A stretch of 50,386 nucleotides of DNA, from NCBI GenBank assembly GCA_030645815.1, contig JAUSMW010000036.1, forward strand, positions 1 through 50,386, read 5' to 3'. The position numbers and the translations under genes are program-made. The notes beneath the pieces are model-generated. The model did no database searches. It was not told the DNA's origin and saw only the letters and a program-made list of their open reading frames with translations. Positions 40,783 through 46,216 of the stretch are shown piece by piece. The stretch is from Candidatus Saccharimonadota bacterium (GTDB lineage: Bacteria > Patescibacteriota > Saccharimonadia > Saccharimonadales > Saccharimonadaceae). Positions within the stretch are counted from its first letter, which is position 1. Every line of letters starts with the position of its first letter.

Positions 40783-43668
40783 ATGCAAAGGTATGAACCT
40801 CTAGCCATTGAAAAGAAATGGCAAAAAAAATGGGATGATGACGGCACGTACGTCGTTGATTTTAATGACCATTCCAAGCCAAAATATTATGGCATGAGTA
40901 TGTTGCCAGGCATAACGGGCGCAGGTATACATATTGGTCATGGGCGGACGTTTCAGTTTAGTGACATCAAGGTTCGCGCTAAACGACAACAAGGCTTTAA
41001 CGCCTATAATCCAATCGGCTGGGATAGCTTTGGTTTGCCGGTTGAGAATTACGCAATCAAAGTCGGTAAAAAACCTCGTATCGCTCATGATGAAGCCAAA
41101 GAGAATTTCAAAACGCAGCTAAAACGACTAGGCTATAGCTATGACTGGACAAAAGAAATTAGTACTGCTGACCCGGAATATTACAAATGGACACAGTGGA
41201 TTTTTAATAAATTATATGAACATGGTTTAGCCTATCAAAAAGAAAGCTCTCAGTGGTGGTGTGAAACAGACCAGACAGTACTAGCAAATGAACAGGTAGA
41301 AGGCGGCAAGTGTTGGCGTTGTGGCAATCCAGTGACAAAGAAAAACCTCAAACAATGGTTTTTCAAAATTACCGAATATGCAGATGAAATTCTAGAAGCC
41401 ACAGATGATTTGAATTGGACAGAAATGGTCAAAACTATGCAAAAGAATTGGATTGGCAAATCTCAGGGGGCTGAAGTTGACTTTCAAATTGTTGATTCAA
41501 GCGAAACAGTAAAAGTCTTTACAACTAGGGCCGACACTTTATTTGGCTCAACATTCCTCGTTCTAGCACCGGAAAATGAGCTAGTTAACAAAATCACAAC
41601 TGCAGAAAATAAATCAAATGTTGATGAGTATATTAAAACCACATTAGCCAAAAGTGAAATTGAACGCCAAGAAAACAAAGAAAAAACTGGTGTCTTTAGC
41701 GGTAGTTACGCTATCAACCCAGTTAATGGCGAAAATATTCCAGTTTGGATTGCTGACTATGTATTAACAGGCTATGGCACAGGCGCAATTATGGCGGTAC
41801 CGGCACACGATGAACGTGACAATGCATTTGCCCAAAAATTCGATATTCCAATCCGTTACGTGATTGAACCAACTGCAGGTACAGCCCAGGGTGATGATAC
41901 ACATAAAAAGTCTGTCTTTATTGCGTTGCGTAACCCAAAGACAAACAAGGTCATCGTGTTGGATTGGGGTCCTCGCCAAGCGCGAACTGGTGGTCAAATG
42001 CTAATTGGCGGTGGCGTCGAGGGCGACGAGGATTTTGTAGCAACTGCAACTCGTGAAATTACCGAGGAAACTGGCTATAAAAATTTTGAACTGGTCAAAG
42101 AGTCAGAGTTTTTAGGACATGGTTATTTTTATTCGAATACAAAGAACAAAAACATGCATGTATCCGGCAAAGGACTACTATTTGATTTAGTAGACGAAGA
42201 AAAAACAGACACAAATCTAGATGATGGCGAGCAAGGAAAGTTTACAGTTACCTGGCAGCCGATAAGTGCTATCGCCAATATGTTAGATGACGGCATACAC
42301 GAGGCCATGTATCGACACCTTGTATTAAAAGAATGTTATAACGGCGAAGGCGTTTTGGTGAATTCTGGACAATTTGATGGCATGACAACTGAACAAGCTC
42401 GCGAAGAAATTGTTGGGTGGCTAGAGCAGCAAAAACTTGGTAACACCAAAGTTCAATACAAGATGCGTGACTGGTTGATATCTCGTCAACGTTATTGGGG
42501 TGCACCGATTCCTATTGTGTATTGTGAAGCCGATGGCACTGTACCTATTCCAGATACTGATTTGCCAGTGATTTTGCCTGATGTTGATGACTACAAACCA
42601 ACTGGAGGAAATACATCAGTTCTGGCGGGTGTTGAGGAATGGGTTAATACAACATGTCCAAAATGTGGCGGTCCAGCAAAGCGAGAAACGGATACTATGG
42701 ATGGTTACGCATGCAGCAGCTGGTATTTCTTACGCTACCTCGACCCTTTCAATGAAAATGAAGCCTGGAACCCTGAACAAATTAAACACTGGGCACCTGT
42801 TGATTTTTATAACGGCGCAGACCACGCAGTCGCTCATCTGTTATATGCACGTTTTTGGATGAGATTTTTCTACAAACTTAGGCTAGTCGGTGACCCAGAA
42901 CCATTCAAACGCATGATGTATAACTCGTACATAATGGCACCAGATGGTCGCAAGATGAGTAAGAGCTTGGGTAACGTGATTGATCCGATGGAAATAATGG
43001 ACAGTGGCTATGGGGCTGATAGTTTGCGTGTCTACGAAATGTTCATTGCACCGTACGACATGGATGCTCCGTGGGACCCTCGAGGCGTGCCAGGTACGTA
43101 CAGATTCCTTAACCGTACTTGGAATCTAGTCCAAGAGTACTTGAATAATGAGCCTGCTGTATTGGATGACAAACAATCAGCTGAAATATTGAAGGTTGCA
43201 CACAAAACAAGCAAAAAGGTTACGGACGATATCGAAAATGACAAATTTAACACTGCAGTCTCGGCAATGATGGAGGCAGTTAATAATTACTTTAAATTAA
43301 AAGAATCTGCTGGAATCGGCAAAAATGATACATGGCTACTTGCAATTGAAAGCCTGTTGCAGGTGCTGGCGCCGTTTGCCCCACACATTACCGAAGAGCT
43401 GTGGTCACAATTGGGGCGCGACAAAACTATTCACATCGATAATTGGCCACAGTGGGATGAACAGTACCTCGTCAGCGATATAGTCACAATTCCCGTGCAG
43501 ATTAACGGCAAAGTTCGCGCCACACTCACTGTCACAGTTGATATATCCGAAAGTGATGTTATCGAACAGGCCAAGTCACATGAAAAAGTAGTCCCATATC
43601 TAGAAGGCAAGGAACTGAAAAAAGCCATTTATGTCAGTGGTCGTATAGTAAACCTAGTAGTTGTCTAG
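40783..43668 (+). CDS. leuS: Leucyl-tRNA synthetase with Nudix domain inserted in the CP1 editing domain
   Basis: HIGH motif (HIGHGRTFQ), KMSKS (GRKMSKSLGNV), editing motif GTGAIMAVPAHDERD, GVLVNSGQFDGM; Nudix box GGVEGDEDFVATATREITEETGY between them. Confidence 0.96.
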   Translation: MQRYEPLAIEKKWQKKWDDDGTYVVDFNDHSKPKYYGMSMLPGITGAGIHIGHGRTFQFSDIKVRAKRQQGFNAYNPIGWDSFGLPVENYAIKVGKKPRIAHDEAKENFKTQLKRLGYSYDWTKEISTADPEYYKWTQWIFNKLYEHGLAYQKESSQWWCETDQTVLANEQVEGGKCWRCGNPVTKKNLKQWFFKITEYADEILEATDDLNWTEMVKTMQKNWIGKSQGAEVDFQIVDSSETVKVFTTRADTLFGSTFLVLAPENELVNKITTAENKSNVDEYIKTTLAKSEIERQENKEKTGVFSGSYAINPVNGENIPVWIADYVLTGYGTGAIMAVPAHDERDNAFAQKFDIPIRYVIEPTAGTAQGDDTHKKSVFIALRNPKTNKVIVLDWGPRQARTGGQMLIGGGVEGDEDFVATATREITEETGYKNFELVKESEFLGHGYFYSNTKNKNMHVSGKGLLFDLVDEEKTDTNLDDGEQGKFTVTWQPISAIANMLDDGIHEAMYRHLVLKECYNGEGVLVNSGQFDGMTTEQAREEIVGWLEQQKLGNTKVQYKMRDWLISRQRYWGAPIPIVYCEADGTVPIPDTDLPVILPDVDDYKPTGGNTSVLAGVEEWVNTTCPKCGGPAKRETDTMDGYACSSWYFLRYLDPFNENEAWNPEQIKHWAPVDFYNGADHAVAHLLYARFWMRFFYKLRLVGDPEPFKRMMYNSYIMAPDGRKMSKSLGNVIDPMEIMDSGYGADSLRVYEMFIAPYDMDAPWDPRGVPGTYRFLNRTWNLVQEYLNNEPAVLDDKQSAEILKVAHKTSKKVTDDIENDKFNTAVSAMMEAVNNYFKLKESAGIGKNDTWLLAIESLLQVLAPFAPHITEELWSQLGRDKTIHIDNWPQWDEQYLVSDIVTIPVQINGKVRATLTVTVDISESDVIEQAKSHEKVVPYLEGKELKKAIYVSGRIVNLVVV

Positions 43669-45710: not shown

Positions 45711-45712
45711 TA

Positions 45713-45742
45713 TTGACATAGTCTACTTTTATGTGATAGAGT
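45713..45742 (+). promoter_or_regulatory. Promoter of the tRNA-like locus
   Basis: Consensus -35 TTGACA, ~18-nt spacer, -10-like TAGAGT; predicted start a few nt before GGGGCTG. Confidence 0.55.
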
Positions 45743-45752
45743 TCTATAGCTT

Positions 45753-45876
45753 GGGGCTGTAGCTCAATGTAGAGCTGATCGCCATGCGATTGTAATAGTA
45801 GTCTTGTCGGGCGGTCGCATCGCGTGCGTACCAAAATATCGACAGATTCGTGCAGGTGCAAGTCCTGTCAGCTCCA
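45753..45876 (+). ncRNA. Aberrant tRNA-like RNA 1 (G3:U70 acceptor, expanded anticodon/variable region)
   Basis: Acceptor GGGGCTG/CAGCTCC + A73; D-arm GCTC-AATGTA-GAGC; T-arm GCAGG-TGCAAGT-CCTGT; 76 nt between D and T arms; no encoded CCA. Confidence 0.7.
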
Positions 45877-45877
45877 T

Positions 45878-45911
45878 TGGGAGCTCAGGGCAGAAAAGCT
45901 CTGAGCTCCCA
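45878..45911 (+). other. Strong inter-tRNA-like hairpin
   Basis: TGGGAGCTCAG-GGCAGAAAAGCT-CTGAGCTCCCA, 11-bp perfect stem, no U-tract. Confidence 0.75.
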
Positions 45912-45946
45912 GTCAAACCGTCCGCTAAGACTTTAAATTAGCGTTC

Positions 45947-46030
45947 GGGCGTGTAACTCAGCTGGCAGAGCACTCGGTGGTTTGTCAGTAACTATCCGAG
46001 AGGTAGAGGGTTCGAATCCCTCCACGCCCA
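45947..46030 (+). tRNA. tRNA-like RNA 2 with 18-nt anticodon loop/extended anticodon stem (isotype undetermined)
   Basis: Acceptor GGGCGTG/CACGCCC + A73, normal D-arm, T-arm GAGGG-TTCGAAT-CCCTC, variable AGGTA; anticodon stem CTCGG/CCGAG encloses TGGTTTGTCAGTAACTAT; no encoded CCA. Confidence 0.75.
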
Positions 46031-46075
46031 CTGCCACCACTCGAAGTGTTCTCACCACTCCGAGCTTCCGGCAAC

Positions 46076-46118
46076 AGGCCTCCCGCGCATTCGTGCGCAG
46101 GAGGCCTTTTTACTTTTT
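46076..46118 (+). terminator. Strong intrinsic terminator of the tRNA-like locus
   Basis: AGGCCTCCCGCGCA-TTCG-TGCGCAGGAGGCCT-TTTTACTTTTTT. Confidence 0.92.
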
Positions 46119-46216
46119 TGTGCCCACTACTGTTTGACACAAACGTCCATCTGAGGTAGAATAATTATCAAGTCTAAAAATAATTTTAATGAAAAAGAAG
46201 AGAGTATAAGAGACAC

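Follow-up and report, generated by a model that had tools for sequence, protein, structure and literature searches.

The interval between rnc and rpsP in the genome of a Candidatus Saccharimonadota bacterium (assembly GCA_030645815.1, contig JAUSMW010000036.1) carries an insertion that encodes two unusual tRNA-like RNAs, here termed RNA1 and RNA2 (Table 1). The window, i.e., the whole stretch of DNA that was analysed, comprises 50,386 nucleotides, with a G+C content of 42% compared to 52% for the insertion. The insertion is missing from a same-genus genome (G001) in an alignment of the rnc-rpsP region. Its neighbours are housekeeping genes, and no linked toxin or immunity gene was found.

Table 1. 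Features of the rnc-rpsP insertion and their coordinates in the window.
Feature	Position	Strand	Details and basis
Whole insertion	45711..46133	+	rnc stop to rpsP promoter; ~420 nt; alignment with same-genus genome
Sigma-70-like promoter	45713..45742	+	TTGACA-18-TAGAGT, TG ahead of -10; 10/12 matches; few bases 5' of RNA1
RNA1	45753..45876	+	124-nt tRNA-like RNA; Rfam RF00005, 34.5 bits; MFE fold
RNA1 acceptor	45753-45759/45869-45875	+	GGGGCTG/CAGCTCC; G3:U70; A73 at 45876; CCA absent
RNA1 D-arm	45762..45775	+	GCTC-AATGTA-GAGC; virus-type D-loop, 6 nt
RNA1 hairpin A	45777..45791	+	GATCGC-CAT-GCGATT; triloop; MFE fold
RNA1 hairpin B	45800..45848	+	Long, imperfect; MFE fold
RNA1 T-arm	45852..45868	+	GCAGG-TGCAAGT-CCTGT with G55; Rfam alignment and viral T-arm comparison
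Strong hairpin, 32 nt	45879..45910	+	GGGAGCTCAGGGC-AGAAAA-GCTCTGAGCTCCC; starts 2 bases 3' of A73; fold
RNA2	45947..46030	+	84-nt tRNA-like RNA; CCA absent; Rfam RF00005, 50.3 bits; 70 nt downstream of RNA1
Rho-independent terminator	46076..46119	+	AGGCCTCC.GCGCA-TTCG-TGCGC.GGAGGCCT + TTTTACTTTTTT; stem in computed fold; read by eye
rpsP promoter, separate	46134..46162	+	Downstream of the terminator

RNA1 had been singled out by a first-pass annotation, made from the sequence alone, as an alanylatable but non-decoding tRNA mimic; the promoter, the 3' hairpin, RNA2 and the terminator were not noticed at that stage. The Infernal/Rfam search which that annotation had suggested matches RNA1 to the tRNA family, above the gathering cut-off of 29 bits, with E-values of 0.0014 when the window and 9.7e-6 when the genome is taken as the search space. 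Its resemblance to tRNA exceeds chance. The MFE fold contains the acceptor, D- and T-arms together with hairpins A and B (z = -2.67 versus shuffled sequences), and all primary features reported for RNA1, namely the acceptor, G3:U70, A73, both arms, the lack of CCA and a D-T interval of 76 nt (RNA1 positions 24-99), could be reproduced. The two hairpins, which occupy the place of the anticodon arm, had likewise been described correctly, except that the loop of hairpin A is a triloop, CAT; there is consequently no 7-nt anticodon loop and no true 'position 33', and the C33 loop originally ascribed to this hairpin does not exist. Similarly, the 6-nt D-loop was said to lack the GG pair, but it retains one G, which is probably G19 and may still pair with C56.

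RNA2 possesses a normal T-arm, while its anticodon arm is approximately 11 nt overlong, with 18 nt in place of the 7-nt anticodon loop. A 10 bp anticodon stem is possible in this RNA, although an alternative fold is more stable by 3.8 kcal/mol. The arrangement of flanking signals suggests that RNA1 and RNA2 are probably cotranscribed, starting at the promoter and ending at the terminator of the insertion, and the hairpin that follows RNA1 is a possible processing site. The terminator was identified by eye and was not reported by an automated terminator scan. A role for RNA1 as an rpsP leader was rejected, since this terminator and the separate rpsP promoter intervene.

A decoding tRNA presents a 5-bp anticodon stem with a 7-nt loop and U33, where RNA1 has the triloop of hairpin A followed by the long hairpin B. 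The G18 G19 and T55 C56 residues are replaced by the loops AATGTA and TGCAAGT, and the 3' CCA is not encoded in a genome that yields no match to the PolyA_pol family. As encoded, neither RNA1 nor RNA2 would decode, and for RNA1, with its missing anticodon loop, this agrees with the original proposal.

The state of the 3' end bears on charging as well. Each of the host's 41 other tRNA genes encodes CCA (38 elsewhere in the genome and three in the window, as the first-pass annotation had remarked for the latter); RNA1 and RNA2 do not. A search for the CCA-adding enzyme (PF01743, PolyA_pol) gave no match in the draft genome, an assembly of 1.46 Mb in 270 contigs that is 94% complete with 6% contamination. 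The same search in relatives was negative in 56 of 61 genomes, the host included, and in 40 of the 43 high-quality ones, the enzyme being present in the other five of the 61. With CCA unencoded and no CCA-adding enzyme detected, both RNAs should stay uncharged.

Several known RNAs share part of this architecture. Canonical tRNA-Ala has in common with RNA1 the G3:U70 pair, A73 and the acceptor, D- and T-arms; unlike it, RNA1 lacks an anticodon loop and CCA, contains 53 extra nt and carries G55. The RNA1 acceptor is identical to that of E. coli tmRNA (GGGGCUG/CAGCUCC), which shares the G3:U70 pair, but RNA1 is only 124 nt long, retains a D-stem and has no tag frame. Its identity as a tmRNA was rejected, as it is not among the matches to the tmRNA covariance models, and the genome's own tmRNA is located on contig C38. 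YrlA (Y RNA-like) RNAs also adopt a tRNA-like fold; in RNA1, by contrast, the ends pair as an acceptor stem, no Rfam match to that group was obtained, and the genome offers no RtcB partner. A twister-sister ribozyme (RF02681) was rejected too, the match scoring 18.7 bits against a gathering cut-off of 34 (E = 0.23) and making use of the T-arm.

The closest likeness is to the unusual tRNAs of viral tRNA arrays, which resemble RNA1 in their 6-nt D-loop with one G, their G55 and their usual lack of CCA, and which include extended or duplicated anticodon arms in examples of 100-154 nt. Among viral contigs, 90 tRNAs were found with the 6-nt D-loop pattern TAGCTCA-N4-AGAGC and T or G at position 55, and 63 of them lack CCA; the ATGT of the RNA1 D-loop is the second commonest loop in this set. 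The same pattern occurs in none of the normal-length tRNAs of 295 Saccharimonadales genomes, and since the viral collection is far larger than these genomes, the contrast is one of kind rather than of rate. Furthermore, the D-loop GG is present in only eight of 64 distinct viral tRNAs with G55 as against 451 of 488 with T55, in a count that uses a crude interval (nt 14-22), ignores kinship and draws on contigs fetched with patterns including these T-loops. Residues 18 and 55 thus appear to covary in viral tRNAs (e.g., L268, L283 and L291). Given this coupling of GG loss to the T55 to G change, the loops of RNA1 are best read as a coordinated swap, and not as the loosening of D-T pairing seen in cell-wall tRNA-Gly, with which they had been compared.

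Oversized tRNA-like genes bearing the T-arm of RNA1 are also found in viral contigs (L323, 117 nt; L306, 113 nt), as are a 120-nt tRNA-like gene with G3:U70 and A73 (L205), one with a hairpin in the anticodon loop (L224), a tRNA with two anticodon-like arms (L192, 7403-7503) and one whose anticodon arm is long and which also has G55 and a D-loop of 6 nt (L177). RNA1 itself combines the 6-nt D-loop, a G55 with loss of the GG pair, and the absence of CCA. Unlike the viral arrays, the cassette is a lone two-gene unit in a bacterial chromosome. BLAST searches of the insertion against phages and plasmids matched only tRNA stretches, an exact RNA2 string has no match in the viral contigs, and no viral, phage or plasmid copy of the cassette was found. 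As no virus carrying it was found, the proposed viral origin is an argument from type, not from descent.

The cassette is known from one copy in one sampled genome. At the rpsP loci of relatives, no tRNA was detected by ARAGORN (29 relatives) or by Rfam (20 relatives). A model, R1, was used to look for relatives of RNA1: it matched only RNA1 itself in 380 genomes of the phylum and, besides RNA1, only sequences of 72-85 nt in 295 genomes of the order, which by their length are read as ordinary tRNAs. Conservation in sister genomes, the lack of which the first-pass annotation had named as refuting its reading, was not observed. A DNA search of 393 order genomes returned, besides the cassette itself, only short partial matches, mostly to the T-arm half of RNA2. 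Finally, the long D-T pattern was encountered at eight places in a collection of genome contigs: some are tRNA-like genes (L140, L141), others are tRNAs arranged in tandem or nested, and others again probably match by chance within coding sequence.

Taken together, we consider it fairly probable that RNA1 and RNA2 make up a non-decoding tRNA cassette of virus type that the host acquired by horizontal transfer. A small two-gene unit would have been gained from a virus or other mobile element, with RNA1 keeping the outer tRNA body while its anticodon domain was replaced by two hairpins, and RNA2 keeping an anticodon arm some 11 nt too long; both would remain uncharged in the host. We put first the possibility that the cassette is now a passenger or relic of that element, and second an active decoy. 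If the RNAs are active, the likeliest way would be as uncharged tRNA decoys that occupy tRNA-binding or tRNA-cutting proteins. The stronger view, that selection has favoured them as bait for toxins acting on tRNA, such as anticodon nucleases, to which they offer no cleavable anticodon while escaping charging, is one we regard as possible but doubtful. The tight fold and the dedicated promoter and terminator favour it, and there are precedents: the tRNA-like domain of the YrlA system has been proposed as a competitive inhibitor of an anticodon nuclease (PMC7790460), and evasion of tRNA-cutting defences has been proposed for phage tRNAs whose anticodon loops are altered (PMC10264068). The lack of conservation, the lack of a linked toxin or immunity gene and the housekeeping neighbours argue against it. 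More speculative still, and in our opinion improbable, is a mobile cassette of deliberately CCA-less, anticodon-less mimics that guard an ultra-small bacterium, or its virus, from tRNA-cutting toxins.

Readings in which the RNAs are charged, spliced or used as scaffolds appear weaker. Splicing of the extra sequence as an intron, leaving a decoding tRNA, finds parallels in Patescibacteria tRNA genes that contain hairpins or whole tRNAs within the anticodon region, and in the viral L224, whose anticodon loop holds a hairpin of ~27 nt directly 3' of GCC. It is nevertheless unlikely: once its hairpins are taken out, RNA1 shows no clear anticodon stem-loop, a group I intron would need a longer insert, the RtcB ligase was not found in the genome, and the host tRNA set is already broad. 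No paper on introns in the tRNA genes of CPR bacteria turned up in the literature searched. The alanylatable mimic originally proposed has in its favour G3:U70, A73 and a full acceptor stem, and we judge it very unlikely, given that RNA1 lacks the CCA that every other host tRNA gene encodes and that the CCA-adding enzyme went undetected in the host and most of the genomes searched. Alanylation in the host is hence unlikely despite G3:U70, a pair that, on this genomic evidence, cannot suffice alone unless an undetected enzyme adds CCA. The tempting step from G3:U70 to an alanylated RNA is thereby corrected. Least credible of all is a scaffold in an RNA-repair or Ro/Y-RNA-like system, which the first-pass annotation had also raised. 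YrlA RNAs do include a tRNA-like domain (PMC7790460), but RNA1 has no Rfam Y-RNA or YrlA match at E <= 10 and the neighbouring genes differ; an RNA-repair system was rejected, as RtcB was not found in the genome.

The cassette, probably acquired horizontally, indicates that tRNA genes of virus type and odd structure can stand alone in a Saccharibacteria chromosome. Since the CCA-adding enzyme seems to be gone from most of the lineage, CCA-less tRNA genes there should be translationally dead, and may serve as natural test cases for non-decoding roles of tRNA.

Odd tRNA genes were also observed elsewhere. Apparent nested tRNAs, in which a complete second tRNA separates the halves of another, often with complementary flanks, occur in Patescibacteria (L145, L148, L150-L153, L155-L158, L161-L169, L171, L173, L174 and L176); in L162-L164, for example, CCCGTTAGAAATT flanks a tRNA-Met. 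Four further Patescibacteria loci (L149, L159, L160 and L170) hold tRNA-like genes with a hairpin or extra sequence of ~20-45 nt in the anticodon loop, unreported by ARAGORN. A Chitinophagaceae genome carries three tandem tRNA-like genes of ~117-122 nt each (L141, 1862-2411, minus strand), flanked by a divergent WYL-domain regulator and a protein of 577+ aa with a weak RING-like match, and a Clostridia sequence (L140, 4033-4125, minus strand) is tRNA-like, with a long D-T interval and a T-loop that reads TGCAAAT. The L192 tRNA lies on a 332-kb viral contig between two tRNAs with CUA anticodons.

In the host itself, tRNA-Gly(GCC) (L058; G000 C6:4482-4555) has the D-loop AGTTGTTTA and the T-loop TTAGAGT, with G19/C56 apparently changed to U19/A56, and tRNA-Cys (L058; G000 C6:4339-4409) combines the unusual T-loop AGCGTTA with a D-loop devoid of GG. 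A second tRNA-Ser(GCT) (L068; G000 C6:7243-7315) lacks the long variable arm, a normal class II copy also being present. Within the window, the leucyl-tRNA synthetase (40783-43668) bears a NUDIX domain inserted after its editing domain.
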